34,053 nt of DNA. Source: Desulfobulbaceae bacterium S3730MH12 (GTDB lineage: Bacteria > Desulfobacterota > Desulfobulbia > Desulfobulbales > Desulfocapsaceae). Under the pieces are notes generated by a model. That model saw nothing but the letters and a program-made list of their open reading frames with translations, searched no databases and had not been told where the DNA came from. Shown one piece after another: positions 255-18,928 of this stretch. Position 1 is the first letter of the stretch. Each line of letters starts with the position of its first letter. The DNA lies in assembly GCA_001750925.1 (NCBI GenBank), contig MAXH01000255.1, forward strand, positions 1-34,053, in the 5' to 3' direction. The position numbers and the translations under genes were made by a program.

Positions 255-325
255 TTTTTTCTCCGAATAGAAGTAACAAGCAATTAATTACAAGTTGAGG
301 GATCTCAATTTTAACATCTCCTTGA

Positions 326-1651: not shown

Positions 1652-1769
1652 ACTTATAACCTCCATTTAATAATTCCTGAAACTATTCGATAAACTCCAA
1701 CTTCGATCTAACACCCATGAAATGAATTTCACAACCCCTTTTCTTCCGGATAGTACATGACTTTCAGGG

Positions 1770-2396: not shown

Positions 2397-2517
2397 AATT
2401 TTCTCCCAAAATTATTGGCTCATAATTCTTACGATACAAAATATACGTGGGCTTCAGTTATAAAAAAAACCGGGGAAATAGCAAGGTATTTTCCAGATCA
2501 ACAGCAAGCTCCAGAGA

Positions 2518-3420
2518 TCAGTTTAAGATCCGCGCTTTACCAATTCTGGTATGGGGAAGAAGTTCTACAGCAATAATACTTGCAAAAATCAGAGCACCTC
2601 CCATAAACTGCATGGTGGTGAGTCGTTCTCCTAAAAACAGCATCCCGCTCAGTGCCGCAAATACTGTCTCTGAACTGAGAATAATTGCTGCATCCGGCGC
2701 CGGAGTATATCTCTGGCCGATAACCTGCAGGGTAAATGCCATTCCAACAGAAAAAACACCGACATAACAGATACCCCAGACAGCACCGAGGAAGTCAGCA
2801 GCCAGTGGGCTTTCAACAATATAGCCCAAAATCAATCCGAAGATTCCGCAAACAGTAAATTGCACCGCTGCAACAACAAGAGGAGCCCTGGTCTTTGATG
2901 CCATAGCTCCCACCAGTATGACGTGGACAGCCCAGAACAGGGTGCTTGAGATTACCCAGAGATCACCTTCGGCCAGCTCAACTCTCTGGGCCCCACTCAT
3001 GATATAAGTACCGATAAAACAGCAGATTGCTGCAGGCCATACAATAAAATGCACTTTTCGTTTTAAAAAAAGAAGGCCGAGGAATGGTACCATGGGGACA
3101 TAGAGCGCGGTGAGAAAACCTGAATTTGTTACAGTGGTGCGAAGGATACCATGTTGTTGCAGGGCTGCAGCGGTAAGGAGAACAGTGCCGGTGATTACAA
3201 GTTTCAGCCAATCTCCCCGCTGAAACTTCCTCTCTTCTCTCTCTACTCGTCTGAACTGTCTGAAGGCAAAAGGGAGAACAATAAGTGCACCCACCAGAAA
3301 TCGTGCTCCGGTAAAACTGATTGTACCGAGATCTCCAACACCTATCTGCTGAACCACAAAACTGGATCCCCAGATGACGGCGGCCAGAGTAAGGAGCAAA
3401 TTTGCCTGTAATCGACTCAT
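2518..3420 (-). CDS. EamA/DMT-superfamily transporter
   Basis: A protein of about 300 residues with ten predicted membrane segments in two homologous EamA halves. The first half starts LLLTLAAVIWGSSFVVQQIG and the second has the matching SSTLFWAVHVILVGAMASKT. The late SSETVFAALSGMLFLGERLT stretch is the hallmark E-x-x-F/P-A-L-x-x...GE motif of the family. Members export metabolites such as amino acids, and the substrate cannot be read from sequence. A longer frame opens at 3462. I chose 3420 because AGGA lies about six bases before it and the family's hydrophobic start follows at once. The gene ends 122 bases before upp on the same strand, so it could be co-transcribed with upp-uraA, but no functional link is apparent. 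Confidence 0.88.
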   Translation of the reverse strand: MSRLQANLLLTLAAVIWGSSFVVQQIGVGDLGTISFTGARFLVGALIVLPFAFRQFRRVEREERKFQRGDWLKLVITGTVLLTAAALQQHGILRTTVTNSGFLTALYVPMVPFLGLLFLKRKVHFIVWPAAICCFIGTYIMSGAQRVELAEGDLWVISSTLFWAVHVILVGAMASKTRAPLVVAAVQFTVCGIFGLILGYIVESPLAADFLGAVWGICYVGVFSVGMAFTLQVIGQRYTPAPDAAIILSSETVFAALSGMLFLGERLTTMQFMGGALIFASIIAVELLPHTRIGKARILN

Positions 3421-3560
3421 ATCTATCCTGTGAGTAAAACTCAACCCTTTGTTCGGCCGCAAGTATACACCGACAAGGCGATTTTACAACACTTTCAACA
3501 ATCGTCCCGGCTCTTAAGCCCAGCTCTATTTTTCATTTTAACCTATTTATTCATGTTTTG

Positions 3561-3591
3561 TGTTTCATATGAAACATATGGTGGCTATACT
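3561..3591 (+). promoter_or_regulatory. Operator-like palindrome on a putative glpR promoter
   Basis: A perfect 16-bp palindrome, TGTTTCATATGAAACA, covers 3561-3576. A -10-like TATACT lies at 3586-3591. With a 17-base spacer the -35 position falls on 3563-3568, inside the palindrome. A repressor bound here would block the promoter reading into glpR. Autoregulation by GlpR is plausible but not shown, since I did not find the same palindrome at the other glycerol genes. The rest of the 3421-3703 region between the divergent DMT and glpR genes shows no gene. Confidence 0.5.
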
Positions 3592-3703
3592 GAACGTTCT
3601 TTCAATGAATGATCCTGGTGAAATCGAAGAACTATTCTTCACGATCCTGTCATTCCCGTAGAGAAAACTTTTTTCCAGGCCATTAATCTTCCAGGGTTAC
3701 TTT

Positions 3704-4471: not shown

Positions 4472-4548
4472 CAGCGATATGTAAGCGCCAAAAGAGAAGA
4501 GCCAAACCTGCCTGCAAAATACAAATGAATTTAAGCAAAGGTATAACC

Positions 4549-6078
4549 ATGAAAACTCCAGTTTTTGATCTTGCCATAATAGGCGGCGGTATTAACGGCT
4601 GCGGCATCGCCCGTGATGCCGCAGGACGCGGTTTATCAGTTTTTCTCTGCGAGCAGAATGACCTGGCCAGCGGCACATCATCAGCCAGCACCAAGCTTAT
4701 CCATGGCGGGCTGCGCTATCTTGAATATTATGAATTTCGCCTGGTGAGGGAATCGCTCCGGGAGCGGGAGGTGCTTCTCAATGCGGCCCCCCATATCATC
4801 TGGCCGCTGCGCTTTATACTTCCCCATCATAAGGGATTACGCCCGGCATGGATGATACGGTTAGGGCTGTTCCTCTACGATCATATCGGCGGCAGAAAAC
4901 TGCTGCCGGGTACAAGCAGCGTAAACCTTGCCACCGACGAAGCAGGGAAATCATTGAAAGGCAACTATAAAAAGGGTTTTGAATATTCCGACTGCTGGGT
5001 AATGGACAGTCGCCTGGTAATTCTCAACGCCATGGATGCAGCCGCCAACGGTGCCGAGATACGAGTTAGAACTCCACTCATCTCCGCTGAAAGAACTAAA
5101 GAGATCTGGACCCTGAAAATTCTGGATAAAAACAGCGGCAAAGAAAGTACGGTGAAAGCCCGGGCACTTGTTAACGCGAGCGGTCCCTGGCTTGACACTC
5201 TCCTCACCCACATTTCTCATACCAAAACAGCGGAACATATCCGCATGGTAAAGGGCAGCCATATACTGGTCAAAAAGCTCTTTGAACACGAACGTGCCTA
5301 TATCTTTCAAAATGACGATGACCGTATCATCTTTGCAATTCCATTCCAGAACAGATTTACCCTTATCGGCACCACAGATGTAGACTTTCACGGCAAGCCG
5401 GATGAAGTTAAAATCGATTCCGGCGAAATCAGCTATCTCTGTGAGGCCGCCAATGAATATTTTACCACACAGATTGGTCCTGAAAATGTAGTCTACAGCT
5501 ATTCCGGAATCCGGCCTCTCTTTGATGACGGTAAGAGCGATGCCAAAGCAGCCACCCGGGACTATGTGCTCAAGCGTGATACGGGTGATGGCGAACCGCC
5601 CCTGCTTTCGATTTACGGCGGCAAGATAACCACCTATAGAAAACTTGCCGAATCAGTACTGGACAAACTCAGCAATTTCCTACCTGAAATGAAAGCCCCC
5701 TGGACGGAAACAGCCAACCTTCCCGGCGGGGATTTTTCGCCCGATGGTTTCCAGGATGAGGTAACAAAACTCAACACAAACTGCCCGGCTATCTCGAAAA
5801 AGCATGCAACTCGGTTGATTAGAACCTATGGTACCTGCGCCCATGAAATGAGCAGAGATATTCAGACACAAGAACAGCTTGGCACACATTTTGGCCACCA
5901 GCTTTATGGTTTTGAAGTGGATTATCTGCTAGCACGGGAATGGGCACAAAGCGCCGAAGATATACTCTGGCGACGCACCAGAATGGGTCTCTTTTTAAAC
6001 GCTGAAGAAACTGGGCAGCTGGAAGACTATTTAAATAAGAAATTTCCTGAGCTGCAAACAACAAATAAGGAGAAATAA
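4549..6078 (+). CDS. glpD: FAD-dependent glycerol-3-phosphate dehydrogenase
   Basis: About 509 residues, the usual GlpD size. It oxidises sn-glycerol-3-phosphate to dihydroxyacetone phosphate at the inner membrane and passes electrons to quinone. The FAD-binding Rossmann motif LAIIGGGINGCGIARDAAGRG is at the N-terminus, followed by CEQNDLASGTSSASTKLIHGGLRYLEYYEFRLVRESLRER, the GlpD-specific substrate/FAD region. YSYSGIRPLFDD and the ISIYGGKITTYRKLAE-type stretch (LLSIYGGKITTYRKLAE) lie in the C-terminal half. A frame extension to an ATG at 4525 exists but has no ribosome-binding site; AAAGG lies seven bases before 4549. The gene follows glpR closely. Together with glpA at 28868 the window encodes two FAD-type G3P dehydrogenases, commonly the respiratory and the anaerobic enzyme. 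Confidence 0.96.
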   Translation: MKTPVFDLAIIGGGINGCGIARDAAGRGLSVFLCEQNDLASGTSSASTKLIHGGLRYLEYYEFRLVRESLREREVLLNAAPHIIWPLRFILPHHKGLRPAWMIRLGLFLYDHIGGRKLLPGTSSVNLATDEAGKSLKGNYKKGFEYSDCWVMDSRLVILNAMDAAANGAEIRVRTPLISAERTKEIWTLKILDKNSGKESTVKARALVNASGPWLDTLLTHISHTKTAEHIRMVKGSHILVKKLFEHERAYIFQNDDDRIIFAIPFQNRFTLIGTTDVDFHGKPDEVKIDSGEISYLCEAANEYFTTQIGPENVVYSYSGIRPLFDDGKSDAKAATRDYVLKRDTGDGEPPLLSIYGGKITTYRKLAESVLDKLSNFLPEMKAPWTETANLPGGDFSPDGFQDEVTKLNTNCPAISKKHATRLIRTYGTCAHEMSRDIQTQEQLGTHFGHQLYGFEVDYLLAREWAQSAEDILWRRTRMGLFLNAEETGQLEDYLNKKFPELQTTNKEK

Positions 6079-6200: not shown

Positions 6201-6950
6201 TTACAGAGGGCTACGTTCTGGTCTGCCCTTCAGTTTGACCTGATATTTGAATTTGTCACTTCTATAAAGGGCGGTCAATTTTTCAATTACTCGAGAATCA
6301 CTCAAGTAGGTCAATCTTTTAACGACCAGGATGGGTGATCCCTTTTCAATTTGGAGCCGGTTTGCATCTTTTCCTGTAATGGATCCAGCTTCTATGATTT
6401 CATCACTTTCTTTGAGTGTTAAATGATATATTTTTTCCAGAGTGTGATAGAGCGAGCTATTTTCAAACTTCACCCGGGCCAAATCCGGCACTAAATCCAT
6501 GGGTAGGTAACTACTTAATATTGCAACTGGTTCTTTATTGACGAGTCGCAGTCTTTTGATCTTGATAACACTAGCCCCTTTTTCTAATTCCATTTCTTTG
6601 CGCATAAGCTCAGGGGGCTTAATTTCCTTCTTTTCAATAAAGATAGTGGTGGGAATCATGCCTCGAGCGACGATTTCCTCATAGGAACCGTAAATATGGC
6701 CAACTCTGTGAACAATTTTTGGATAAGTTACAAAAGTACCCACCCCCTTTCTTTTCTCCACCAGGCCGGCGAAAACAAGATTGTTTATGGCTTTTCGAAC
6801 AGTTTCGCGAGAAACATTGAATTTTTCCTGGAGTTCAAGTTCTGTCGGGATTGACTGGTCTGGGAGATAGTTTTTATTGGCAATATCTTTGCGGATACAC
6901 GACTCAACCTGGTGGTATAATGGAAGCAAACTATTTTTATCAACCGACAT
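6201..6950 (-). CDS. GntR-family (HutC/UTRA) transcriptional regulator
   Basis: The 249-residue protein has an N-terminal GntR winged helix (LYHQVESCIRKDIANKNYLPDQSIPTELELQEKFNVSRETVRKAINNLVFAGLVEKRKGVGTFV). A UTRA effector domain covers about residues 90-240 (VIKIKRLRLVNKEPVAILSSYLP ... YHLTLKESDEIIEA ... SPILVVKRLTYLSDSRVIEKLTALYRSDKFKY). UTRA domains bind small ligands, often sugar phosphates. AGGA lies seven bases before the ATG. It is 89 bases behind the HAD phosphatase gene on the same strand, and both are divergent from the corrinoid/ABC/kinase operon, so it is the likely local regulator of that island. A 16-bp palindrome at 8034-8049 is its best candidate operator. The ligand is unknown. 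Confidence 0.92.
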   Translation of the reverse strand: MSVDKNSLLPLYHQVESCIRKDIANKNYLPDQSIPTELELQEKFNVSRETVRKAINNLVFAGLVEKRKGVGTFVTYPKIVHRVGHIYGSYEEIVARGMIPTTIFIEKKEIKPPELMRKEMELEKGASVIKIKRLRLVNKEPVAILSSYLPMDLVPDLARVKFENSSLYHTLEKIYHLTLKESDEIIEAGSITGKDANRLQIEKGSPILVVKRLTYLSDSRVIEKLTALYRSDKFKYQVKLKGRPERSPL

Positions 6951-7039
6951 AATGTCGTCCTGAGATAAATTTTTATTTTCAAAAAGACTCTTTGCAGCCT
7001 ACACAAAACAGAAGGAAAGGACAGGACAGGAGAAATGTT

Positions 7040-7828
7040 TCATGGAAGGAGGATTTTTGCCAGCTCGGCAAATCCAGCCCCTCCTTTTTCTCTTGTTATC
7101 CAGGCAGGCTTGAATACCAGGCTGTTCTGGAATGCCAGAACATTGGCAACACCGACAGCGTTAGGGAAATATTCAAACATGGGTTCATCGTTGGGGGAGT
7201 CTCCGGCAAAGATGACATTTTCCTTTATTGTATCCAAATCTATTTTAAAGACTTCCCTGAACATGAGTTTGGTCATGGAAAGCTTATCATAAGCCCCAAA
7301 CCATCCATTCACATGGATAGAACTTACCTTTGCTGATGCTCCATTCTTTTCAAAGATGTGAACAATTTTGTCAATCTCTGTTTGAGAAAGCGCTGGGACA
7401 TCTTCGGCAAAATCAATGGCAAGATCAGCCTCCCTGTACGGCTGATCAGCTGAGACCACACATCCAGGAACGGACTCGATAATTTTCTGTTTTATAGTGG
7501 TAAGTTTTATCTGATCCCGCGCTCTTTCCTGCGCTGTTTTGAAATATCTGCGTATCATTTTTTTTGCATGGAAATCATAAACAAAATAAAACGCACCATT
7601 TTCACCGACAATCCCGTCAACAGGCCACATTCTTGCGATATGGTCACACCATCCGGCAGGTCTGCCTGTGATAGGAATAACTTTAATATCGGCATTACTG
7701 AAGTCTTCCAATGCCTGGAAAGCAGATGCCGGAATCCTGCCCTCATGAGTTATGGTGTCATCAATATCTGTGAGAAGATAATTGATGGCAGAACTTTTTT
7801 CCTGTGGAAAATATTTTATCGGTTTCAT
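7040..7828 (-). CDS. HAD-superfamily (IIB) sugar-phosphatase-like hydrolase
   Basis: The 262-residue protein has HAD motif I as LLTDIDDTITHEG, with the nucleophile Asp21 and the acid/base Asp23. Motif II is probably IPITGRP, and motif IV is FAGDSPNDEPMFEYF. The layout, with the cap inserted between motifs II and III, is that of HAD-IIB (Cof/sucrose-phosphatase-like) enzymes. These usually remove phosphate from small sugar or polyol phosphates. The ATG has only a distant GAAGGG upstream, so the start is less certain than the family. It precedes gntR on the same strand and is divergent from an operon ending in a sugar kinase. It may adjust the pool of the phosphorylated intermediate or inducer made by that kinase, which is inference. 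Confidence 0.85.
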   Translation of the reverse strand: MKPIKYFPQEKSSAINYLLTDIDDTITHEGRIPASAFQALEDFSNADIKVIPITGRPAGWCDHIARMWPVDGIVGENGAFYFVYDFHAKKMIRRYFKTAQERARDQIKLTTIKQKIIESVPGCVVSADQPYREADLAIDFAEDVPALSQTEIDKIVHIFEKNGASAKVSSIHVNGWFGAYDKLSMTKLMFREVFKIDLDTIKENVIFAGDSPNDEPMFEYFPNAVGVANVLAFQNSLVFKPAWITREKGGAGFAELAKILLP

Positions 7829-8008
7829 AAGAACATAATACCCTTCGGGCAGGTTGAAGATTTTTAGGCTGAAAGCAAAGCATACTCTATATCAGGATTG
7901 GAAAGCTATATCAATTCATACACGAGTAACAAGACCGGTCTTCCTCCCCCCTGACCATCGATAAAGATTTCCACGAATCCTCTTTAATTTCAGGTTCCGA
8001 TAAATACC

Positions 8009-8062
8009 TTGACAAAAAACATATCATCCGTATATCATGACGTCATGATGAATATCACGGAT
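8009..8062 (+). promoter_or_regulatory. Promoter and operator of the corrinoid/ABC/kinase operon
   Basis: The -35 box TTGACA is at 8009-8014 and a -10-like TATCAT at 8033-8038, an 18-base spacing. A perfect 16-bp palindrome, ATCATGACGTCATGAT (8034-8049), covers the -10. It is nested in a wider dyad of ATCCGT (8026-8031) and ACGGAT (8057-8062). This is the arrangement expected for a repressor that blocks polymerase, and the adjacent GntR/UTRA protein is the obvious candidate. The rest of the 316-base divergent gap (7829-8144) holds no gene. A short imperfect stem around 8091-8118 lies in the leader, and I see no cobalamin riboswitch. Confidence 0.7.
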
Positions 8063-8144
8063 TGAGTGAAGTTTATGATTTTTTACAATGCATCCTATCT
8101 AGGGCCTGTCCATAGATGAGAAAAATTTTTCTGGAGAAATTGAT

Positions 8145-8780
8145 ATGAAAATGGAGGATTTGGTTAAGGCTGTAATTGAAGGAAATGCTCCCGTAGTAAG
8201 TGATCTTGTTGTTCAAGGACTGAATGAAGGCCTGAAAGCGACTGATATTTTGGCAGAAGGGCTGACACCTGGCATGTCTACTGTTGGGGATCTTTTCCAC
8301 CGGGGAGAATATTTTCTCCCGGAAATGCTTTTTTCAGCGAAAGCCATGAAGGGTGGCTTGGAACATCTCGAGACGATTCTTTCAACAGGCGGTTCAGATG
8401 CTCTGGGCACAATTGTGCTTGGGACCGTCAAGGGAGATCTCCATGATATTGGAAAGAACATTGTCGCTATGCTTATGAAAGGAGCTGGATTTAATGTAAT
8501 TGATTTGGGTGTCGATATTCCGGTTGAACGATTTGTAGAAGCCCTTACTGAAGAAAAGGCTGATATTCTCGCTCTGTCTGCACTTTTGTCAACAACTATG
8601 CCTGCAATGGAGAGTACCGTAAAAGCAATAAAGGAATCCGGGCTCAAAGACAAAGTTAAGATCTTAGTCGGAGGGGCCCCGGTCACTCCAGAATTTGCTG
8701 ATGAAATCGGTGCAGACGGATATTCCGAAGATGCTCCTGGTGCGGTTAACAAGGTCAACGAGTTATTAGAATTGGTGTAA
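8145..8780 (+). CDS. Corrinoid (B12-binding) methyl-carrier protein, MtaC/MtvC type
   Basis: The 211-residue protein has the two-domain methyl-carrier layout. A helical cap domain covers about residues 1-85 and includes the GEYFLPEMLFSAKAM signature at 54-68. A Rossmann-type cobalamin domain follows, with GTVKGDLHDIGKNIVAMLM. The D-x-H-x-x-G motif is at 98-103, and His100 would be the lower cobalt ligand. The SALLSTTMPAM and VGGAPVTPEFADEIGADGY motifs of the family are also present. Such proteins shuttle a methyl group on cobalt between two methyltransferases. GGAG is eight bases before the ATG. It is the first gene of the operon, and the UroD-fold methyltransferase gene starts 23 bases downstream, the usual pairing of carrier and substrate-specific methyltransferase. 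Confidence 0.95.
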   Translation: MKMEDLVKAVIEGNAPVVSDLVVQGLNEGLKATDILAEGLTPGMSTVGDLFHRGEYFLPEMLFSAKAMKGGLEHLETILSTGGSDALGTIVLGTVKGDLHDIGKNIVAMLMKGAGFNVIDLGVDIPVERFVEALTEEKADILALSALLSTTMPAMESTVKAIKESGLKDKVKILVGGAPVTPEFADEIGADGYSEDAPGAVNKVNELLELV

Positions 8781-8803
8781 CAAAATTCTATTAAGGAAAA
8801 CAT

Positions 8804-9970
8804 ATGACAAAAAATAAAAAAACGATGACGAGGCGGGAAAGGGTCGTTGCGGCTTTGAACCACAAAGAGCCTGATCGTGTACCTTTGAGCATGTCTATTA
8901 CCATTCACGCATATGAAAACCTGAAACAACATCTTGGAATTGATTTAAAAGAAGATCTCAACCCGGGCAGATGGACAGAGGTGCCAATCCACCCTTCGGT
9001 TGCTGAAAAGTTCGGGCTTGATGTTTTATGGCTGCCTACTGGAAAAGCTCACAAAAAACCAAGGCAATCTAATGATCCTGACAAATGGTATGACGGATGG
9101 GGTGTGGAATGGACAAAAATATCTTTACCCACCGGAGGGTACTATAACGAGATGAGCTGCGCTCCGTTGAAGGATGCTACCATCGAGGATCTTGAGGATT
9201 TTGATTGGCCAGACCCTGCTGATCCTGGAATTGTAGAGGGTGTAAGGGAATATTATAAGCATATCCATAATGATACTGACTTCGCAATTTTAACTAAATT
9301 CGGCGGCGCTGTTTTTGAGCAGGCCTGGTATTTACGGGGTATGGAAAAGTTTTTATTGGATATGGTGGAAAATCCGGAGTTTGTCGAAGTTTTATTGACA
9401 AAAATAGCCAAGGTTCAGATGGGTTTTGACGAAGTGCTGATAGAGGCAACAGGTGAATATGTGGATATTCTACGCCTCAGTGGAGAAGATATGGGAACTC
9501 AGGAAAATCCTATCATTTCTCTTCCAATGTTTCGTCGTATGGTCAGGCCTCATTTAGAAAAATTGTGGCTTTATGCCAAAGGTAAATTGCTGCAAAAGAA
9601 TCCGAATGCCAAAATAATGTTGCACTCTTGCGGGGCTGTGAGCTCGTTTCTTCCAGACTGGATAGATATGAAGCTGGATGTTTTGGATCCAATTCAACCT
9701 AAGGCTAAGGGCATGGATCCTTTTGGTTTAAAAGCTGATTTTGGCGACAAACTGACATTCCATGGTGGTATTGATGCACAGCATGTGCTGCCTTTCGGTA
9801 CAACGGAAGAGGTTCGTGAACATACCAGGAAGTATATCAAAGCATTAGCTCCGGGAGGTGGTTTTATCTGCGCGCCGGTTCATAATGTTCAAGGGGATGT
9901 GCCTCCTGAAAACCTCGTTGCCATGCGAGACGCGGTTGAGGAGTTTGGATATTATCCGATTAATTTATAG
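8804..9970 (+). CDS. UroD-fold corrinoid methyltransferase (MtaA/CmuA/MtvB-like)
   Basis: The 388-residue protein belongs to the uroporphyrinogen decarboxylase superfamily, with the entry motif RRERVVAALNHKEPDRVPLSMS and the late LDPIQPKAKGMDPFGLKADFGDKLTFHGGID. It keeps a zinc-binding pattern like that of the methyltransferase branch: His274-x-Cys276 in IMLHSCGAV and Cys356 in GGGFICAPVHN. True UroD decarboxylases lack this. In that branch zinc activates the methyl acceptor or donor while a TIM barrel presents the methyl group to cobalamin. The corrinoid partner is encoded directly upstream. It could be the substrate demethylase (MT1) or the transferase to a carrier such as tetrahydrofolate (MT2), and sequence alone does not decide. 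AAGGA precedes the ATG. No second methyltransferase or reductive activator (RACo/RamA type) is in the window. Confidence 0.9.
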   Translation: MTKNKKTMTRRERVVAALNHKEPDRVPLSMSITIHAYENLKQHLGIDLKEDLNPGRWTEVPIHPSVAEKFGLDVLWLPTGKAHKKPRQSNDPDKWYDGWGVEWTKISLPTGGYYNEMSCAPLKDATIEDLEDFDWPDPADPGIVEGVREYYKHIHNDTDFAILTKFGGAVFEQAWYLRGMEKFLLDMVENPEFVEVLLTKIAKVQMGFDEVLIEATGEYVDILRLSGEDMGTQENPIISLPMFRRMVRPHLEKLWLYAKGKLLQKNPNAKIMLHSCGAVSSFLPDWIDMKLDVLDPIQPKAKGMDPFGLKADFGDKLTFHGGIDAQHVLPFGTTEEVREHTRKYIKALAPGGGFICAPVHNVQGDVPPENLVAMRDAVEEFGYYPINL

Positions 9971-10089
9971 CAAATAAAACAAAAAAGGAATGCTTCAGGT
10001 GTCTGAGTACAAGACAGACTTTTACCATTAATAAGTGCCATAGTGGATTCACTTTCTACAGCTGTTATGTCAACAAAAAGGAGGAAAAA

Positions 10090-11280
10090 ATGAAGAGTAA
10101 ATTAGTTGGGTTGTTCCTGATTCTTGCAATGACGGGGTTTATTGCCGGTCAACATTCAAGTGAAGCCAAAGCCGGTCAGGATGACAAAACCATTAAAGTG
10201 GTCTGGTTAAGCTTTGGCCTCAGTCATGAATGGTTTCATTCGCTATCGATCTTTGCTGAACACGAGGCTCGGAAAATAGAAAAAGAGGATGGAGTAAAGT
10301 TTGAATTTGTAATCAAAGACGGTCAACGCAATTTGCAGACTCAATTGCAGCAGTTTGATCAATTAATTGCCCAAAAAAATGTTGATATTATTTATTTTGA
10401 GCCGATTGATCAGACAGCTCTGGCTAAAATGGTCAAAAAAGTCAACAAGAAGCTCAATATACCCATTGGTTCTGCGGGAATTATGACCAACGGCGGCAAG
10501 TATTTGTATGTTGGTCTGGATAATGTTGCGGCAACTGAACGTTGTGGCGAACAGCTCATCCGCTTACTCAATGAAAAATATGGCAAAGGTAAGTGGCCGG
10601 AAAATAGCGTAGTTATGGAAAACTGGGGGCCTCCAGGGATTTCAATTACAACGAACCGTCATGCAGGTTTCTGGAAAGCTTTTGAGCCGGCTCTCAAGGA
10701 AAATCCAACAGTGAAGATGGTTAACGCAACGGGGATGTGGGACCCCGCCACAGCTTTTAAGGCAGCAAGCGACCTGCTGACTAAATATGGTGATAAACTG
10801 ATTGGTGCCTATTCTCATGATGATCCATCTGCCACGGAAGGCATAGTACGTGCATTGGAACTGAAAAAACTGCAATATCCTGTGGGCAATCCAAAACATA
10901 TTCCGATAGTAACGTACGATGCGACGAAAACGGGTATGCAAGCGATACGAGATAAAAAAATTGATGTCATTACAGAACAGCCTGCCCGTGGTTACGCTCA
11001 TCTTGTTATGCGCTATCTGTATGAGTGGCATAAAAATGGCTATGAGTCTTTGCCAAAGGCCGGCACAGAGCTAAGCAAAGCACAATTGAAACAGATGTTC
11101 AGCGAGGAAACCGGTGTTGACAGCTGGTCCCCAGCCAAGGTTATGAAAGGCCAAAACTGGGATGGTATCTGGATAGCGCCCAAGAGCCCATTGATTCCTA
11201 ATGAAGTTGATCCATATGCAAAAAGCCAGTGGGGTAATTACATGTATTGGTTAGATAAAAATGAATGGCCGAAAAAATAA
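10090..11280 (+). CDS. Periplasmic sugar-binding protein of a ribose-type ABC importer
   Basis: The 396-residue protein begins with an export signal (MKSKLVGLFLILAMTGFIAGQHSSEAKA). A periplasmic-binding-protein type 1 fold follows: IKVVWLSFGLSHEWFHSLSIFAEHEA, LDQLI-like FDQLIAQKNVDIIYFEPID, and GAYSHDDPSATEGIVRALE. RbsB-type proteins bind monosaccharides, polyols or autoinducer-like furanosyl compounds. It is longer than RbsB (about 300), with an extended aromatic-rich C-terminus (NWDGIWIAPKSPLIPNEVDPYAKSQWGNYMYW). That could fit a larger or substituted ligand. A strong AAGGAGG lies before the ATG. It follows the methyltransferase gene by 119 bases and precedes the ATPase. The ligand is unknown; an O-methylated sugar or polyol is my inference from the neighbours. 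Confidence 0.88.
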   Translation: MKSKLVGLFLILAMTGFIAGQHSSEAKAGQDDKTIKVVWLSFGLSHEWFHSLSIFAEHEARKIEKEDGVKFEFVIKDGQRNLQTQLQQFDQLIAQKNVDIIYFEPIDQTALAKMVKKVNKKLNIPIGSAGIMTNGGKYLYVGLDNVAATERCGEQLIRLLNEKYGKGKWPENSVVMENWGPPGISITTNRHAGFWKAFEPALKENPTVKMVNATGMWDPATAFKAASDLLTKYGDKLIGAYSHDDPSATEGIVRALELKKLQYPVGNPKHIPIVTYDATKTGMQAIRDKKIDVITEQPARGYAHLVMRYLYEWHKNGYESLPKAGTELSKAQLKQMFSEETGVDSWSPAKVMKGQNWDGIWIAPKSPLIPNEVDPYAKSQWGNYMYWLDKNEWPKK

Positions 11281-11300
11281 CAGCTAGATTTTTTTTGATG

Positions 11301-11323
11301 GCGCGGGTGGGCACGTCCCGCGC
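11301..11323 (+). other. GC-rich hairpin between binding-protein and ATPase genes
   Basis: GCGCGGG (11301-11307) pairs with CCCGCGC (11317-11323) around a nine-base loop. It lies within the 63-base gap after the binding-protein stop. Such intercistronic stems often protect the upstream message or attenuate read-through, so that the binding protein is made in excess of the membrane parts. A T-run precedes rather than follows the stem, so a full terminator is unlikely. Confidence 0.55.
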
Positions 11324-11343
11324 TATCCTACTGCGGAGGCACT

Positions 11344-12975
11344 ATGAATAAGCTAGCCGTTGATGTGATACATGTGGATAACCATGCCTCATTTTCTGCC
11401 GGGAATAAAACGGCATACCGTGTACAGGGTGTTGGCAAAAGTTATTCTGGAACCGCTGTATTATCGGATATTAACCTGGATTTTTTAACAGGTGAAGTCC
11501 ATGGAATCATAGGTAAAAATGGTGCCGGAAAATCTACTCTGGTAGATATCATGCATGGCTCGGATACTCCTTCAGGTGGTACCTTGACGATCTTTGGCGA
11601 GACAATAACCAAACTTACTCCAACTCAGGCGCATGAGAAAAAAATCGTTTTAGTTCCCCAGAAAACCAACTATGCCAATGATCTGACCATCGCAGAAAGC
11701 CTCTATGTCGGGAGTTATCCAAAGCGGTTTTTGGGTTATGTCAGTGATCGGAAAATGATGTTGTTGAGTAAAAAATTATTACAAAAAGTTGGACTGCAGT
11801 TGGATCCGAGTTCCAGAATAGGGGATCTATCACTCGAGAAGCGACGTCTCATTGAGGTGATAAAAGCATTATGGTGTTTCGATGCACGGGTTTTAATTTT
11901 GGACGAAACAACGGCAGCTTTAGGCATTACATTCAGGAAAAAACTGTTTGAATTGATAAAAAAAGTCGTTACGGAAGAGAAACGTACAGTCATTTTTATA
12001 GGTCACAGGCTGGATGAAATAATGGAGATTTGTGATCGGATTTCTGTGCTGAGGAATGGTCGTTTAATTAAGACAGCCAATACAGATGATCTGGATATAG
12101 AAGATTTAGCGGAATTGATTATTGGAGGAAGTGAAAATGAGAAATCTGCTCATCAAACGTATACCCACCAGTCTTCTGGAAGGAGCAAACAGACCTGCTT
12201 TCAGATCTCTAACCTGAGTTACCAGGACGATTTTTCAAATGTCAGTTTTGAAGTTGAGATTGGAGAAGTCGTTGGCATAGTCGGTATGGTCGGCTCTGGT
12301 TATAGCGAACTTCTGCGTTATCTGGGAGGGTTGTTACCCGGTCAGGGCAGTGGCGAAATATTGCTGGACGATAAGAAGGTGATTCCACATAACCCTGCTT
12401 TTATGAAGGGGCATGGTTTAGGCTATTTGACCAATAAAAGAGAGGAAGAAGCTCTCTTTCACGGGCTTTCTATTACTGATAATCTGATAGGCAGTAATTT
12501 TAAAAAATATACGAACAGGCTTGGATTGATTCAGTATGGCAGAGTTTATCAGACCGTCAATTCAATCCAGCAGATACTTGATATTAAGATGCCCTGGGGC
12601 AGTGGATCAGTGATTGATGGCTTAAGTGGAGGCAACAAGCAAAAAGTGCTGGTAGGCAGACTGCTGGATTATGACCTCAGAGTGCTCTTACTGGATGAGG
12701 TCGCCGAAGGAGTGGATATCGGTGCGCGGCGCAAGCTACTGAAATTTATAAGTGAAGAAGTCAGCAAGGAAACGGCGGTGCTTATGGCCTCTAATGTTGT
12801 GATGGATTTAATGGATGTCTGTGATCGTATTCTGGTTATCTATCAGGGCCGTATTGTCGAGACTTTCAACCGTTCATATTTTAATGAAAGTGAAATTTAC
12901 AGCGCGTTGCAGGGAATTGGAGTCAATGGAGACCGGGGCAATTGTGGCGATAACGCTGCAAGGGGGAACTCATGA
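11344..12975 (+). CDS. Sugar ABC importer ATPase with two nucleotide-binding domains (RbsA/MglA type)
   Basis: The 543-residue cytosolic protein carries two ABC domains. The first has Walker A GIIGKNGAGKSTLVD, a divergent signature DLSLEKRRLIEV, Walker B VLILDETTAAL and the switch histidine region IFIGHRLDEI. The second has a degenerate Walker A, GIVGMVGSGYSELL, without the lysine. It keeps a good signature DGLSGGNKQKVLVGRLL and Walker B VLLLDEVAEGVDIGARR. One catalytic and one degenerate site is normal for RbsA, MglA and XylG. GGAGG sits just before the ATG. The gene overlaps the permease by four bases (ATGA), which implies translational coupling. It powers import for the binding protein encoded upstream. 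Confidence 0.95.
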   Translation: MNKLAVDVIHVDNHASFSAGNKTAYRVQGVGKSYSGTAVLSDINLDFLTGEVHGIIGKNGAGKSTLVDIMHGSDTPSGGTLTIFGETITKLTPTQAHEKKIVLVPQKTNYANDLTIAESLYVGSYPKRFLGYVSDRKMMLLSKKLLQKVGLQLDPSSRIGDLSLEKRRLIEVIKALWCFDARVLILDETTAALGITFRKKLFELIKKVVTEEKRTVIFIGHRLDEIMEICDRISVLRNGRLIKTANTDDLDIEDLAELIIGGSENEKSAHQTYTHQSSGRSKQTCFQISNLSYQDDFSNVSFEVEIGEVVGIVGMVGSGYSELLRYLGGLLPGQGSGEILLDDKKVIPHNPAFMKGHGLGYLTNKREEEALFHGLSITDNLIGSNFKKYTNRLGLIQYGRVYQTVNSIQQILDIKMPWGSGSVIDGLSGGNKQKVLVGRLLDYDLRVLLLDEVAEGVDIGARRKLLKFISEEVSKETAVLMASNVVMDLMDVCDRILVIYQGRIVETFNRSYFNESEIYSALQGIGVNGDRGNCGDNAARGNS

Positions 12976-13955
12976 GGTTTTTAAATAGTCACCACCTGAA
13001 ACTCGTTGTTGATAACTTTATCTGGGTATTGGTGGTTTTTTTTCTAGCGCTGGCCTCTATATCAATTGATGGCTTTTTCACTGTTGAAAATTTTATCAAT
13101 ATGCCTTTTCACAGCGCCTCGTTATCGATGATGATTCTTGGTATGGCGTTCTGTCTATTGTCCAAACAAATGGATTTGTCATTGGAATCCACTTACGTCA
13201 TTGCTCCGGCTATTGGTGTGCTGCTGGTTACTCGGTGGTTCCCTGGTATTCCAGGAAATTTTGCGGTGCTTTTTGCCATTATCGCCGGTGCATTAATTGG
13301 ATTAGTTAACGGTCTTCTGGTGGTCAAGCTGCGGATTAATTCGTTCCTGGCAACGCTGGCCATGTTGATTGTCCTGCGTGGCAGCGTTGAATTTCTGTTA
13401 CCTGTGGGCATATTTGAAGTACCGAGTCTTTTTGGCGTCCTGGGTGCGGATACTTTTTTACTCGGTGGTTTTGAAATTCCCTATACCATATTCATTTATA
13501 TAGCCATTTTTTATACAGCCGGATTCATAATACGAAATACAGTTTTTGGGAAAGATATTGTTGCCGTCGGAAGCAATGCTACAGCAGCATTCATTGCCGG
13601 TATAAGAGTGGAGAGAGTTCATATTCTTGTTTTTGTTGTTTCAGGAATGTGTGCTGCCTTTGGCGGGGTGCTGGCTGTAGGCAAAATGGGCAGTGTCATG
13701 AATCAACTGGGAAATGGCGATATCCTGTTTGTCTTTGCAGGCACTGTTTTGGGAGGAATCAGCCTGGATGGTGGAAAAGGGAAGATTATGAACGCTTTGG
13801 GGGGCGGGTTGCTGCTTACCATTATTACCACAATTTTAAACTATTCAGAAGTATCCCCCTACCTGATCAAATCTATTCAAGGATTGACCCTGTTAGTAGC
13901 CATGGTTTTGAATAATGTTATAGAAATATTTATAAAATCTCGTTTATCCAGATAG
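12972..13955 (+). CDS. Sugar ABC importer permease (RbsC/BPD_transp_2 type)
   Basis: The 327-residue integral membrane protein has about eight to ten hydrophobic segments. It shows the RbsC-family pattern: FLATLAMLIVLRGSVEFLLPVG, then NTVFGKDIVAVGSNATAAFIAGIRVERVHILVFVVSGMCAAFGGVLAVGKMGS, and the late GNGDILFVFAGTVLGGISLDGGKGKIMNALGGGLLLTII. The GxxxxAAxxAGI-type stretch contacts the ATPase. The start overlaps the ATPase stop in an ATGA, with a GGGGG-rich ribosome-binding site inside the end of the ATPase gene. Only one permease gene is present, so the channel would be a homodimer. The kinase gene starts 38 bases downstream. Confidence 0.95.
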   Translation: MRFLNSHHLKLVVDNFIWVLVVFFLALASISIDGFFTVENFINMPFHSASLSMMILGMAFCLLSKQMDLSLESTYVIAPAIGVLLVTRWFPGIPGNFAVLFAIIAGALIGLVNGLLVVKLRINSFLATLAMLIVLRGSVEFLLPVGIFEVPSLFGVLGADTFLLGGFEIPYTIFIYIAIFYTAGFIIRNTVFGKDIVAVGSNATAAFIAGIRVERVHILVFVVSGMCAAFGGVLAVGKMGSVMNQLGNGDILFVFAGTVLGGISLDGGKGKIMNALGGGLLLTIITTILNYSEVSPYLIKSIQGLTLLVAMVLNNVIEIFIKSRLSR

Positions 13956-13993
13956 GTTCGAGTGAGCGGAATAAGAGTAATAAAGGAAAGGAC

Positions 13994-15508
13994 ATGGTTG
14001 ATAAAAAAAAATATATTGTAGCTGCTGATTGCGGTACAACAGGCTCAAAAGCTGTGGTTTATGATATAACAGGTAAACCAGTGGGCTCTGGCTATCAGGA
14101 ATACGGTCTTGAATTTCCACAATCAGGCTGGGTGGATCAGGATGCCAAAATGCTTTTTGATACCTTGTTGTCAGTCGTCAGCCGGGCAGTCAAAGCTGCA
14201 GATATTTTACCCTCGGATGCCGCAGCGATCTGTTTATCTACACAGCGATGTACACTTATTTGTGTGGATCAGGACGGCAATCCCTTGCGAAAAGCCATCT
14301 CATGGCAGGATAACAGGACTGATCAGCAGTGTGAGTTGATCCGCCAGCGAATTGGTGCAGACAGGTTTTATGATACCACTGGATTACCCATTGCTAATGT
14401 CTGGACATTGCCTAAAATAATGTGGGTACAAGAAAATGAGCCAGACCTATATGAAAAAACATATAAATTTGTCAATGTGCAGGCTTATTTAAACCGCCTA
14501 TTGGGCGCAGAATATTTTTATGATGATTTTTCCAACGCCTCTTTGCATGGCCTGATGTCACTGACTCGAATGGAGTGGATTGATGATTTCATTCAAACCA
14601 TGGATATTGATAGCAGTAAACTTCCTCAACTTGTTGGTTCAGGGCAGCAAATAGGTGTGTTAAATAATGCTATTGCCGATAAGTTGGGATTGACTGCAGG
14701 TACGCCTATTATTTCGGGTGGCGGTGACCAGCAATGTGCAGCAGTCGGCTCCAATGTGATTGAAGAGGGAGACTGCGAAGTTACACTGGGCACTGCAGGA
14801 GTTACGATTTGCTCTTTGAATGAACCGCGCTTAGATCCTGAGCGTACCATTCCCTGTCTGGTGCATGCAGTTGACGGGAAATGGACCTGTGAGGGATTAC
14901 AAAATGCAGCTGGTGCTTCTTTAAAGTGGCTGAGAAACGTATTACAGGAAGGTCAGCCGGAGGGTAACATCGTTGACTATGATTATATGACAGGCCTGGC
15001 ATCCAAATCAACTATTGGTGCAAATGGTATTACTTTTTTGCCATATCTTGCCGGTGCGGCGGCTCCTTTATGGGATAGTTCCGCTCGCGGCATTTTATTT
15101 GGCATGGGGCTGATGACCAATTTGAGTGATGTTGCCCGAGCGGTACTGGAAGGGATCAGTTTTGAAACAGCATCAATTTTAGAGAACTTTGCCCGTCGTG
15201 AGATCAAAGTCAGTAAAATTCGTGTATCTGGAGGGGGGGCTAAATCCGCCTTGTGGGGGCAATTGCAGGCAGATATTTATGGTGTTCCGCTCCAGCGTCT
15301 GCTGGTAGATGATGCCACTATTCTTGGCGCCGCTGTTCTAGGGGCATTTGGCATTGGTATCTATGATTCTGTAGATGAGGCTGCCGGTGCGATGGTGCAT
15401 ACTACCACCGAGTACCAGCCGAATATGGGCCATCATAAGAAGTATATTGAAAAACGTGAAATTTTTGACAAGCTATACACAAGCATTAAATCCGGAGGAT
15501 TGTTTTAG
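13994..15508 (+). CDS. FGGY-family carbohydrate kinase (xylulokinase-like)
   Basis: The 504-residue protein has both FGGY domains. The N-terminal phosphate loop is YIVAADCGTTGSKAVVYDITG, and QSGWVDQDAKM and ISWQDNRTDQQ line the substrate cleft. ISGGGDQQCAAVGS and LGTAGVTICS follow, and the C-terminal ATP-site motif is IRVSGGGAKSALWGQLQADIYGVPL. The general-base aspartate is probably in ISWQDNR or GGGDQQ. The family phosphorylates sugars and polyols (xylulose, erythritol, glycerol, AI-2). The sequence looks closer to the xylulokinase/LsrK branch than to GlpK, but I cannot name the substrate. It is the last gene of the operon, so the imported compound is probably phosphorylated after or before demethylation. 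AAAGGA precedes the ATG. Confidence 0.92.
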   Translation: MVDKKKYIVAADCGTTGSKAVVYDITGKPVGSGYQEYGLEFPQSGWVDQDAKMLFDTLLSVVSRAVKAADILPSDAAAICLSTQRCTLICVDQDGNPLRKAISWQDNRTDQQCELIRQRIGADRFYDTTGLPIANVWTLPKIMWVQENEPDLYEKTYKFVNVQAYLNRLLGAEYFYDDFSNASLHGLMSLTRMEWIDDFIQTMDIDSSKLPQLVGSGQQIGVLNNAIADKLGLTAGTPIISGGGDQQCAAVGSNVIEEGDCEVTLGTAGVTICSLNEPRLDPERTIPCLVHAVDGKWTCEGLQNAAGASLKWLRNVLQEGQPEGNIVDYDYMTGLASKSTIGANGITFLPYLAGAAAPLWDSSARGILFGMGLMTNLSDVARAVLEGISFETASILENFARREIKVSKIRVSGGGAKSALWGQLQADIYGVPLQRLLVDDATILGAAVLGAFGIGIYDSVDEAAGAMVHTTTEYQPNMGHHKKYIEKREIFDKLYTSIKSGGLF

Positions 15509-15581: not shown

Positions 15582-15615
15582 CCAGAAAGCCCGGCCGACT
15601 GACCGGACTTTCTGG
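15582..15615. terminator. Long hairpin between convergent kinase and thiolase operons
   Basis: CCAGAAAG-C-CCGG (15582-15594) pairs with CCGG-A-CTTTCTGG (15603-15615). That makes 12 base pairs with one C/A mismatch around an eight-base loop. It sits in the middle of the gap between two convergent genes, where a bidirectional terminator is expected. A clear T-tract is missing on either strand. Confidence 0.6.
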
Positions 15616-15632: not shown

Positions 15633-17825
15633 CTATTTTAACTTGAAGACGACCTTATCCGGGCCATCTATCTTTTTAGGTTTAACCAGCTTAACCGCTG
15701 ACCCTTCCTCAAATACATCGTCATCCTTGAGCTGAAGCAATCCAAAAATTGAACCGGCTACATCTGGGAACTCTACCTGAACAAGGACTTTCTTCTTGTC
15801 CAGCAGATCCCCCTGGCGGTCTTCACAAACAACCGTAAAAGAGCGGATATAGCCCGAGCCGGGATTGATAGTCCTGGCGTCCTTCTCCGGGTCCAACATT
15901 GTAAAGCTCTCCTCATCGAACATTGCCGGCGGTATCATCACTTCGTCCCTTTCGGCGCAATATGTTCCGTTTATCTCGCCGTTGGCCAGGTCTGTATAGA
16001 ATTTCGAACCTCCCACACCAGCAGTATAGCGGTATGACAGTGGGATCTTGCCCAGTTTTTGGGACATAGACAATACGTCTACTTCCACTGGCTTGATCTG
16101 CTCGATATTCAATTTGGCCTTTTTGCGCCCGAGCGGTGCGAAGTACTTGATATCCAGAATATCGCCGGTACGTTTGGATTCAGACTTCCAGACCGCCTTG
16201 ACGCGCATACCGATTTTAACTTTCTTGGGATCAATATCACCGAGTTTATGTACCAGCCCCATATCTTCAACGATGCCGTCAAGTGCGATCACAGCGAAGA
16301 TGTTGACCTTACCTTTTGGCAGTGGAGAACTGTCCCAGTTGACATGAGAAATAGTGAAAGTTTTCACCACTCCAGTATCGGGAATGTTAAAGTAGTTAGT
16401 GACAGGTGCCAGATCGGCAATTTCAGAGAATGGACGAGCCGGTACCATCATGCGATTAGTGCGACTATCAAAACTGCCACGGATTTTACCTTTTTTGAGG
16501 CCGTCCAGGTAGGTTGAGATGGCAAATCCGTTATCCCAGGCGTAACGCAGATCTGGGGCGTCAGATATATTCGGTACGTCATCAACCGACTTGATAGGAG
16601 TACCCGGCAGGTCTTCCGGCTTCATATCATTCCAGCGCGATTTGGTAACCGGTGAAGCTCCATCGGATCCCATCACCACCACTGTGCCGGCCTGCATTAG
16701 ATCACCCCAGGCCTGGGCGACACCACGACGCAGCCTCCTCTGTAACTGTCGCTTGCCAGCCTGGCCGGACAGTTGAAAGTAGAGCTCAGCAATTTTCATG
16801 AGACCAGTGGCCGCGATCGGGTTTCCTACTCCCAATGCACCACCAGAAGGACATAAGGGATGGCTGCCGTCACGGTGCAGATTGCCCGATTCGAACAGAT
16901 CTTTCACTGTACGACCACTCTTGTCCAGAAGCAGTGCATTAAGATGGTGCAATGCTTTATAGTCGAAAGGATCGTATGGCTCGAAGAAATCTATATCACG
17001 TGCCGGATCGACGACTCCGGCCATCTTGTAAGCGTCCCTGGCAGCCATTGCCACATAGTCCGGGTAACAAAGATCCCGCGCACACCAGTAAGCAGTTTCA
17101 AGACGAAAACCAACGCCTTCAATGAAGACTGGGGCTTTTTTCAAAGTACGGGCAATGCGCTCATTAACCATGATGATAGCGACGGCGGCATCGGAGGTTG
17201 GGCTTATGTCAAGCCGCTTGACAGGCGAGGAGAGCACCGGAGAATTAAGCACATCATCTGCAGTTATGTCTACCGCAATCTGGGCTGCAGGGTGGTTCAG
17301 CGCGTTACGTTTAATCATTGCCGAGATTTCGGCAAGGTCGCGTTCGCTGTACCCGTAAACATGCATGAAGCGAGCCATTTCCAAGGCAAAGATATGAATC
17401 AGCGTCAGTTCAAGCGGCTGCTCGGTGACGCGGTCAAAGATTGTGATAAAAGCACCGGCAGGATGTGGAGTGCACGGAGACATTTTCTCTTCGGCGACGA
17501 CCATGCAGGAATTATATTTGCCGGAGGCAACATGCATCCATCCGTGGATCGGGCTCATTACACCGGTGGCACCACCGATGAAATGGCGCATATACGGTTT
17601 ATTGGCACCACCTGCACCGGCAATCAGGTGCTCGCCCTTCATGTGGACGCCATCAAAGGCATCAGGTGCGGTACCGAGGGTTACAGCATCGATATCATCA
17701 ATACTGAGACCAGCATCTTCCAGGGCCATGCGGACCGCCTGGGCTGCCAGTTCGCCAGGAGCCTCTTTGGCACGGCGCATGAATTTTGTCATCCCTACAC
17801 CAATAACAGCTACGCGATTACTCAT
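15633..17825 (-). CDS. Thiolase-fold protein fused to two DUF35-like domains
   Basis: About 730 residues. Residues 1 to about 400 form an SCP2-type thiolase fold (RVAVIGVGMTKFMRR ... VRMALEDAGLSIDDIDAVTLG ... NPIAATGLMKIAELYFQL). Two DUF35-like segments follow at about 420-560 and 597-730. Near residue 88, where thiolases have the nucleophilic Cys, the sequence is IGGATGVMSP. The usual GHP histidine is replaced by Asn (GVGNPIAATG, about 334). The first DUF35 has lost its zinc-ribbon cysteines (GKIRGSFDSRTNRMMVPARPF), and the second keeps one. Thiolase-fold/DUF35 pairs are known as retro-aldolases (Ltp2-ChsH2) or CoA-ester enzymes (BbsAB), so a non-thiolase C-C bond reaction on a CoA ester is plausible. 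The frame opens at 17924, but AGGAGG before 17825 and overlap with the upstream stop (ATGA) fix this start. Confidence 0.85.
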   Translation of the reverse strand: MSNRVAVIGVGMTKFMRRAKEAPGELAAQAVRMALEDAGLSIDDIDAVTLGTAPDAFDGVHMKGEHLIAGAGGANKPYMRHFIGGATGVMSPIHGWMHVASGKYNSCMVVAEEKMSPCTPHPAGAFITIFDRVTEQPLELTLIHIFALEMARFMHVYGYSERDLAEISAMIKRNALNHPAAQIAVDITADDVLNSPVLSSPVKRLDISPTSDAAVAIIMVNERIARTLKKAPVFIEGVGFRLETAYWCARDLCYPDYVAMAARDAYKMAGVVDPARDIDFFEPYDPFDYKALHHLNALLLDKSGRTVKDLFESGNLHRDGSHPLCPSGGALGVGNPIAATGLMKIAELYFQLSGQAGKRQLQRRLRRGVAQAWGDLMQAGTVVVMGSDGASPVTKSRWNDMKPEDLPGTPIKSVDDVPNISDAPDLRYAWDNGFAISTYLDGLKKGKIRGSFDSRTNRMMVPARPFSEIADLAPVTNYFNIPDTGVVKTFTISHVNWDSSPLPKGKVNIFAVIALDGIVEDMGLVHKLGDIDPKKVKIGMRVKAVWKSESKRTGDILDIKYFAPLGRKKAKLNIEQIKPVEVDVLSMSQKLGKIPLSYRYTAGVGGSKFYTDLANGEINGTYCAERDEVMIPPAMFDEESFTMLDPEKDARTINPGSGYIRSFTVVCEDRQGDLLDKKKVLVQVEFPDVAGSIFGLLQLKDDDVFEEGSAVKLVKPKKIDGPDKVVFKLK

Positions 17826-18928
17826 GATATCCTCCTTTCGCTGTCCAAAATGGCCACAGCGCAGGAATCGGTTGGGACTCCACGCCAGGCATGTACCAGT
17901 ACTCGCTCGGCCTCTACCTGACATGCGCCGGCTTCACCACGAAGCTGTGACAATGCTTCGTAGAGGCGCGCGCCGCCTGTGGCTTCAAAAAGGTCGCCGC
18001 CACCCAGGGCACCACCATTGGGATTGACAACCAGACCCGGGCTGCCGTTTAGACCCAGGGCCTCCAGATGCATTAATTGCCGATGCGCATAGGCATCGGA
18101 GACAAAGTACGCATCGATTTCTTCCTGTGGGGCTTTAATGCCCGATTCTTCATAGGCTCGCTCGGCCGCAATTGCCGTACCAGCTGAAAGGCTGTGATCA
18201 CGACGCTCGAGAATAGAATTGCCTGACCCCCAGCCAATGCCCGCGAAATAGGCCGGTTTACGTGCATATTTGCGGGCGGCCTCATCGGTGCCCAGTACTG
18301 CAATGATTGCACCGTCGGCGTGCTGAGCAAACATCAGTTCCGTCAATGGCTGTGCCACTGGACGGGCGTTAATGATATCCTCAATCGAGAAAGTGTCGCC
18401 ATAAGGAGATTTAGTGTCGGCGATAGCGGCTGCACGGTTTTTGACCACAACTTCAGCCACATCATCAATAGTAAAACCCGATTCACTCAGGAAGGAATTG
18501 AGTTCCAACCCTGCCAGCCAATGTGGTGACAGGCCGAACCGATTATATATAGGGTCGTAAGCGAATCGAATCATTTCATCCTTGGTCAACATATTCGAGG
18601 CCTTACTGTAAGACTCGACCACCAGAATATCGTAGCGTCCTGTCTCGATCTGCATGGCTGCCGATGCCACGGCATGCATAAAATCGCCAGGTATGGTGTA
18701 CACAGGTTTGCGCACCATGCCTAGCTGATCAGGAACGTACTCGTCGGCAATTGAGTAGCCTGAAGGAAAATCTTCTTCTGCAGATACTGCGCCGTCTATC
18801 AGATCGATCGTGACGCCCGCATCCCTATAAGCCATTTTGGCAGCTTTAGCAATCATCTCACGATACGACAGACTTGTCGACGTGGGAGTGAAGCCGCAGA
18901 TGCCCATTCCTAACAACGCAACGCCCAT
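17822..18928 (-). CDS. Thiolase-fold protein (SCP2-type), partner of the DUF35 fusion
   Basis: The 368-residue protein has the thiolase-like layout: VALLGMGICGFTPTSTSLSYREMIAKAAKMAYRDAGVTIDLIDGAV, then HAVASAAMQIETGRYDILVVES, a central HADGAIIAVLGTDEAA, and the C-terminal VNPNGGALGGGDLFEATGGARLYEAL ... PTDSCAVAIL. Neither catalytic signature is intact. The Cys position near residue 80 lies in TIPGDFMHAVAS, and the GHP motif reads GGD. A retained Cys occurs near the C-terminus. It ends in an ATGA overlap with the DUF35-fusion gene, so the two proteins are probably made in fixed ratio and may form a heteromer, as in Ltp/Chs- or Bbs-type complexes. Acyl-CoA or sterol-like substrates are possible; none can be named. 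Confidence 0.82.
   Translation of the reverse strand: MGVALLGMGICGFTPTSTSLSYREMIAKAAKMAYRDAGVTIDLIDGAVSAEEDFPSGYSIADEYVPDQLGMVRKPVYTIPGDFMHAVASAAMQIETGRYDILVVESYSKASNMLTKDEMIRFAYDPIYNRFGLSPHWLAGLELNSFLSESGFTIDDVAEVVVKNRAAAIADTKSPYGDTFSIEDIINARPVAQPLTELMFAQHADGAIIAVLGTDEAARKYARKPAYFAGIGWGSGNSILERRDHSLSAGTAIAAERAYEESGIKAPQEEIDAYFVSDAYAHRQLMHLEALGLNGSPGLVVNPNGGALGGGDLFEATGGARLYEALSQLRGEAGACQVEAERVLVHAWRGVPTDSCAVAILDSERRIS

Follow-up and report, generated by a model that had tools for sequence, protein, structure and literature searches.

Introduction

Which methylated compounds are open to anaerobes depends on their corrinoid methyltransferases, and many proteins of the UroD fold are without a known substrate. 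As described in the available parts of the sources cited here, members of the UroD superfamily include O-, S- and halogen-demethylases (PMC10418091). Demethylation of methoxylated aromatics is the reaction of MtvB, OdmB and VdmB, MtoB catalyses O-demethylation in archaea, and the substrates of CdmB are haloalkanes (PMC13222342), while Mto proteins transfer the methyl group from methoxylated aromatics (PMC8630106). Here, a locus is described from Desulfobulbaceae bacterium S3730MH12 in which a corrinoid carrier gene and a UroD-fold methyltransferase gene stand in tandem with genes for a carbohydrate importer and a kinase. The stretch analysed (the window; 34,053 nucleotides, MAXH01000255.1) is contig 255 of a draft assembly of 3.13 Mb in 319 contigs, estimated to be 82% complete.

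Six tandem genes on the plus strand (8145-15508) encode a corrinoid methyl-carrier protein with B12-binding_2 and B12-binding domains (8145-8780), a UroD-fold corrinoid methyltransferase that matches URO-D (PF01208) and is proposed to be an O-demethylase (8804-9970), a three-gene ribose-type ATP-binding cassette (ABC) importer, and an FGGY carbohydrate kinase with FGGY_N (PF00370) and FGGY_C (PF02782) domains (13994-15508). A sequence-only reading of this DNA had named these six and two divergent genes, for a GntR/UTRA regulator and a HAD-IIB hydrolase; all eight proved to be intact open reading frames where that reading had placed them, with domain profile matches to the families it had named.

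Comparison with described systems

The MtvABC, OdmABCD and MtoABCD systems likewise pair a UroD-type methyltransferase with a separate corrinoid carrier, and in those systems the methyl group passes to a folate-type carrier (PMC13222342, PMC8630106, in the parts available). Compared by description, the window operon differs from them in encoding neither a second methyltransferase nor an activase and in being joined to a sugar importer and a kinase. Because no second methyltransferase lies in the cluster and the substrate is a putative one, the locus is not assigned to any of these systems, though it seemingly works like a corrinoid O-demethylase. The CdmBCA chloromethane system also combines a UroD superfamily methyltransferase with a corrinoid protein, but CdmB is reported, in the accessible part of the source, to be without zinc (PMC13222342), and it aligns weakly with the window protein (profile E value of 1.2e-6, C-terminal part). 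The type 1 mlp clusters hold UroD-type methyltransferases with a corrinoid protein as well; an activase belongs to those clusters, and neither a kinase nor a sugar importer appears in the available part of their description (PMC10418091).

Similarity to MtaA, MtbA and CmuA is seen in the fold and in an H-x-C motif, which line up with 4ay7, a methylcobalamin:coenzyme M methyltransferase. However, the third ligand position of the window protein is H and not C, such that the H-x-C...C zinc site is kept in part only, and its scores fall far below the respective NCBIfam cut-offs (49.8 versus 244, 43.5 versus 400 and 38.5 versus 235.4 bits). Within the open-access literature, which leaves most subscription papers outside its coverage, no description came to light of a corrinoid/UroD pair combined with a sugar importer or kinase. 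Within that coverage, the locus represents a recurrent and undescribed variant of corrinoid demethylation.

Recurrent linkage of carrier, methyltransferase and kinase

In a tree of UroD proteins, the window protein falls within a tight clade of seven members (Shimodaira-Hasegawa-like approximate likelihood ratio test, 100), namely the window, contig 25 of the same genome, and loci L069, L070, L071, L072 and L054, the last of which shares its contig with L073. A tblastn count at E 1e-25 gave 48 UroD places, 7 in the clade and 41 outside it. The carrier is encoded within 5 kb of UroD in all seven clade members versus 3 of the 41 outside places, and an FGGY kinase in five of seven (window, contig 25, L071, L072 and L054) versus none of the 41. 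The Fisher value for kinase co-occurrence is 1.2e-5, a figure that ignores relatedness. L069 showed no kinase, and its contig ends within the binding-protein gene.

The outside places are best-scoring matches and not a random sample, and several lie near a contig or fetch edge, where a kinase could escape (e.g., L062, L064, L104, L110, L112, L113, L120, L121, L030 and L076). L073 and L102, which repeat L054 and L072, were omitted, and L051, L052 and L053 had no UroD at E 1e-25. The tree and the residue counts given below rest on the 41 rows of an earlier count based on open reading frames (5/7 versus 0/34), which is without L057, L105, L106, L108, L117, L119, L030 and L051.

Three gene orders were found: carrier-UroD-importer-kinase in the window, carrier-UroD-kinase in L071 and L054, and kinase-carrier-UroD in L072. 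Furthermore, the kinases beside UroD are of two unrelated FGGY types, XylB-like (window and L072) and GlpK-like (L071, L054 and contig 25), with 26-29% identity between types. Recurrent co-occurrence, in differing gene orders and with two types of kinase, provides the strongest support for a pathway shared by kinase and methyltransferase. The sequence-only reading had proposed that the corrinoid and UroD genes are linked to carbohydrate partners, with co-occurrence of the gene set in other genomes as a check. For carrier, UroD and kinase this was borne out, and the linkage is firm; for the importer it is weaker, as a binding-protein gene stands beside the pair at two of the seven loci (window and L069).

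Upstream of the carrier-UroD pair of L070, positions 172-3686 hold genes that resemble, by eye, a phosphonate-type ABC importer.

The carrier and the UroD-fold protein

The carrier residues D98, H100 and G103 (D-x-H-x-x-G) are invariant across the 7 aligned rows, and the protein scores under the NCBIfam cut-offs for MtgC (221.7 versus 370 bits) and TIGR02370 (195.3 versus 215.3 bits).

For the UroD-fold protein, a single-sequence search found no PDB relative at E 0.001. A structural model was used for fold alone, its mean predicted local distance difference test score being 63.6, with poor values in residues 1-78. The first match to this model by Foldseek is 4ay7. With VIA-align, uroporphyrinogen decarboxylases gave Z scores of 17.0-19.2 at root-mean-square deviations of 3.6-4.2 Å over 267-297 residues, and 4ay7 gave a Z score of 16.0 at 4.4 Å over 286 residues. 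In a profile alignment, H274 and C276 fall on the two conserved residues of the 4ay7 H-x-C motif and H360 falls on the third C of 4ay7; these three 4ay7 residues are its zinc ligands. Among 41 homologues, position 274 is H in 40, position 276 is C in 35 and D in the other 6, and position 360 is H in 38. Judged from the alignment, the protein retains a methyltransferase-like metal-site pattern, and it presumably binds a metal ion.

The nearest UroD relatives come from Deltaproteobacteria, Desulfobacteraceae, Desulfobacterales and Candidatus Zipacnadia. Only one of 192 other genomes of the same order has a relative at E 1e-30, and it lies outside the clade. None was found in viral contigs. Seven plasmid records carry UroD relatives, all at less than 60% identity, and in the two best of these neither a carrier nor an FGGY match lies within 5 kb of UroD. 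On one Chloroflexota plasmid (L074, CP069395.1), a distant homologue lies among genes for sugar-phosphate isomerases, Gfo/Idh/MocA oxidoreductases and ROK kinases, with a sugar ABC importer approximately 5 kb on, a neighbourhood suggesting that further branches of the UroD family may likewise have a part in sugar metabolism.

The phylum of genome G575 is strikingly rich in UroD homologues. Matches at E 1e-30 occur in 137 of its 251 genomes, a single genome has up to 140 first-look candidates, and many of the matches show in-frame TGA or TAG. For one distant UroD match, L041, recoding of an in-frame stop was considered and rejected, as this stop lies, by eye, off the metal-site positions. Contig 304 of the host genome carries a UroD-like gene (L052:7055-8087) with an in-frame TGA (7988) which, by eye, falls at the third metal-ligand C of MtaA. 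This TGA possibly encodes selenocysteine, and the hairpin 3' of it scored no better than many shuffles (z of -1.0 and -1.4). The neighbours of this gene encode a carrier, a RACo-type activase and a CobW-like GTPase, and contig 304 looks closer to the type 1 mlp clusters than the window operon does.

Two types of FGGY kinase

The window kinase scores below the XylB cut-off (TIGR01312, 352.5 versus 380.25 bits). The kinases of L071, L054 and contig 25 share 69-79% identity among themselves and 44-49% with the GlpK that the window encodes outside the operon. All three exceed the 498-bit cut-off of the GlpK-type subfamily NF000756 (L054, 628.6; L071, 621; contig 25, 562.7), and L054 alone exceeds the 590.35-bit cut-off of the equivalog TIGR01311 (596.2, versus 584.2 for L071 and 535.4 for contig 25). 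Matches to the L071 kinase at E 1e-150 occur in 14 of 395 genomes of the phylum. Solely G285 (79%), a genome of the window's phylum that is apparently the same record as L073, and the host genome itself (70%) reach at least 70% identity, and in each the kinase stands next to UroD of the clade; the remaining 12 matches are at 46-50%.

All 12 ordinary GlpKs compared keep the equivalents of E. coli GlpK R83, E84, W103, Y135, D245 and F270. In contrast, the UroD-linked kinases of L054, L071 and contig 25 replace E84 with A, A and S and Y135 with V, V and M, respectively. As E84 and Y135 are presumably glycerol contacts, these changes suggest a substrate larger or less polar than glycerol.

The UroD-kinase pair of contig 25 (L050:6027-8726), which is in open frame, is followed by genes for an ABC importer of peptide type, another UroD and a TIM barrel resembling xylose isomerase.

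The importer

The importer comprises a ribose-type substrate-binding protein (10090-11280; Peripla_BP_4, PF13407), an ATPase of RbsA/AraG type with two ABC_tran stretches (11344-12975; NF008442, 334.3 bits versus a cut-off of 689) and a permease of RbsC/AraH type (12972-13955; BPD_transp_2, PF02653; NF008441, 153.7 bits versus a cut-off of 378). The binding protein scores far below the RbsB cut-off (32.9 versus 337 bits), and at E 1e-15 no relative was found among the 394 other genomes of the phylum sample. One of the five clade genomes searched (L069) has a relative, 88% identical and truncated by the contig end, beside its carrier-UroD pair. A D-R pair of 2ioy, which we take to form part of the ribose site, falls on G130-I131 of the window protein, making plain ribose unlikely as the ligand. 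A structural model of the binding protein, built from two sequences, had a mean predicted local distance difference test score of 41.3 and was not used.

Operon layout and probable regulatory sites

The six plus-strand genes are spaced by 23, 119, 63, -4 and 38 nucleotides and probably form a single transcript. On the opposite strand, divergent from them, lie the gene for a GntR/UTRA transcriptional regulator of HutC type (6201-6950), with PF00392 and PF07702 above cut-off and a score under the cut-off of every NCBIfam equivalog shown, and that for the HAD-IIB hydrolase (7040-7828; TIGR01484, 70.2 bits versus a cut-off of 41.8). The former is probably a local repressor and the latter perhaps a sugar-phosphate phosphatase; no HAD-IIB gene was seen at the other loci of the seven-member clade.

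A promoter-like site on the plus strand (8009-8038; TTGACA-18-TATCAT, 11 of 12 positions) is a consensus match alone, and the region as a whole holds no excess of such sites (19 versus 21.0 in shuffles). Overlapping it is a perfect 16-bp palindrome (8034-8049), a probable operator, of which an identical copy lies at L069:709-724, 41 bp 5' of the L069 carrier gene. The palindrome and the ribosome-binding region form the strongest similarity between the upstream stretches of the window and L069. The palindrome is the sole exact copy in the host genome, and it was not found in the stretches read 5' of the carrier genes in L070-L073. A wider palindrome regulon was rejected, the host genome having one more place, with 2 mismatches, within an open frame.

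Downstream, a hairpin with a 15-pair stem (15582-15615; fold z of -3.94) lies between the convergent kinase and thiolase genes and is a probable terminator. The two thiolase-like genes (15633-18928, minus strand), one of them fused to an OB-fold domain, have open reading frames that overlap at 17822-17924. The window has no Rfam match at gathering scores.

Proposed pathway and alternatives

We consider it reasonably probable that this anaerobe uses a small O-methylated polyol or sugar by corrinoid-dependent O-demethylation and directs the methyl group to the C1 reactions of Wood-Ljungdahl metabolism. The ABC importer would take in the methyl ether. Its methyl group, presumably bound to oxygen, would be moved to Co(I) of the carrier by the UroD-fold protein, which probably binds a metal ion, and phosphorylation of the carbon skeleton by the FGGY kinase would come before or after demethylation. 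Two functions would be supplied from outside the operon: a methyltransferase that delivers the methyl group from the corrinoid to tetrahydrofolate for Wood-Ljungdahl metabolism, and a reductive activase that restores Co(I). The GntR/UTRA protein would control the operon at the palindrome. Elsewhere in the host genome are encoded a RACo-type activase and three members of the methyltetrahydrofolate:corrinoid methyltransferase family, and one of these methyltransferase-family genes adjoins a gene scoring above the cut-off for the gamma subunit of acetyl-CoA decarbonylase/synthase (ACDS/CODH). A methyl route to tetrahydrofolate and Wood-Ljungdahl metabolism is possible, albeit not tied to this operon.

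Regarding the carbon skeleton, the operon lies between genes for GlpD (4525-6078) and for GlpK (26203-27699) and GlpA (28868-30454), all above their cut-offs. The flanks also hold a GlpR-like gene and two genes for UgpC-like ATPases, each below cut-off, and three importer genes with no NCBIfam match at E 1e-40; a GlpC label for the gene at 31918-33195 was rejected, as it matches HmcF/TmcB alone, below cut-off. Three features favour a small polyol: these glp flanks, the presence of GlpK-like kinases next to the pair at other loci, and the altered but recognisable pocket of those kinases. The window's own XylB-like kinase and its ribose-type importer favour a pentose-like sugar. Compared with a hexose or cyclitol, a small polyol is indicated at least as strongly by the GlpK-type kinases and glp flanks. 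A more specific, tentative proposal, which we regard as possible but doubtful, is an anaerobic pathway dedicated to O-methyl glycerol or to methylated polyols of similarly small size, in which the methyl group would reach Wood-Ljungdahl metabolism by way of the corrinoid and a re-tuned GlpK-like or XylB-like kinase would deliver the skeleton to glycerol-phosphate-type metabolism.

Several findings weigh against O-demethylation of an imported polyol or sugar. The importer is linked at two of the seven clade loci, the pair in L070 has no kinase within 5 kb, and L072, a 3-kb contig, could be mis-binned. The operon itself encodes no second methyltransferase or activase, and its kinase is XylB-like and not GlpK-like. 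The contig 25 pair is without catalytic-type residues, its UroD having Y for H274 and H360 and its kinase having lost D10 and D245, which points to decay or a new role. Of the sequence of import, demethylation and phosphorylation that the sequence-only reading had set out, the repeated link of the corrinoid/UroD pair to a carbohydrate kinase and the methyltransferase-like metal pattern hold up, whereas the binding protein at two of seven loci leaves the import step less secure. The importer, the chemistry and the substrate rest on less than the carrier-methyltransferase-kinase linkage.

The alternative that survives best, though unlikely, is that two compounds of one origin are involved, a plain polyol or sugar handled by importer and kinase and a different one demethylated by the corrinoid/UroD pair. 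The sparse importer linkage and the lone pair of L070 would fit, as would the several compound classes on which UroD relatives act according to the available parts of two sources (PMC10418091, PMC13222342). However, a kinase of either type stands beside the pair at five of seven clade loci versus none outside, and the GlpK-like subfamily was found solely there.

An S-methylated sugar such as methylthioribose, from which the pair would remove the S-methyl group, is an improbable substrate. S-demethylases belong to the UroD superfamily, and some mlp clusters adjoin methylthioribose genes, as told in the part of the source available (PMC10418091), but profile matches revealed no MtnK- or MtnA-like gene in the operon. 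To our knowledge, moreover, the established methylthioribose kinase is not of the FGGY type. Slightly less probable still is another chemistry, in which the pair runs in the methylating direction or cleaves a different alkyl group; the unassigned function of this UroD subfamily and the lack of a PDB relative in the single-sequence search leave room for it, but an operon with an importer and a catabolic-type kinase suggests uptake and breakdown, and the metal pattern is methyltransferase-like. That the pair landed beside a sugar operon by chance is very improbable, since, although only two loci are known at which importer genes adjoin the pair, the kinase recurs within the clade as counted above and both binding protein and palindrome recur in L069.

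Conclusions

The question is open to experiment, as the carrier, methyltransferase, binding protein and kinase can each be expressed and assayed. If the proposal of corrinoid-dependent O-demethylation is true, methylated polyols or sugars would join the known anaerobic methyl donors, which suggests a sink for these compounds in anoxic settings. If the pathway does serve small methylated polyols, it would provide a first function for part of the large UroD subfamily with the H-x-C...H pattern.

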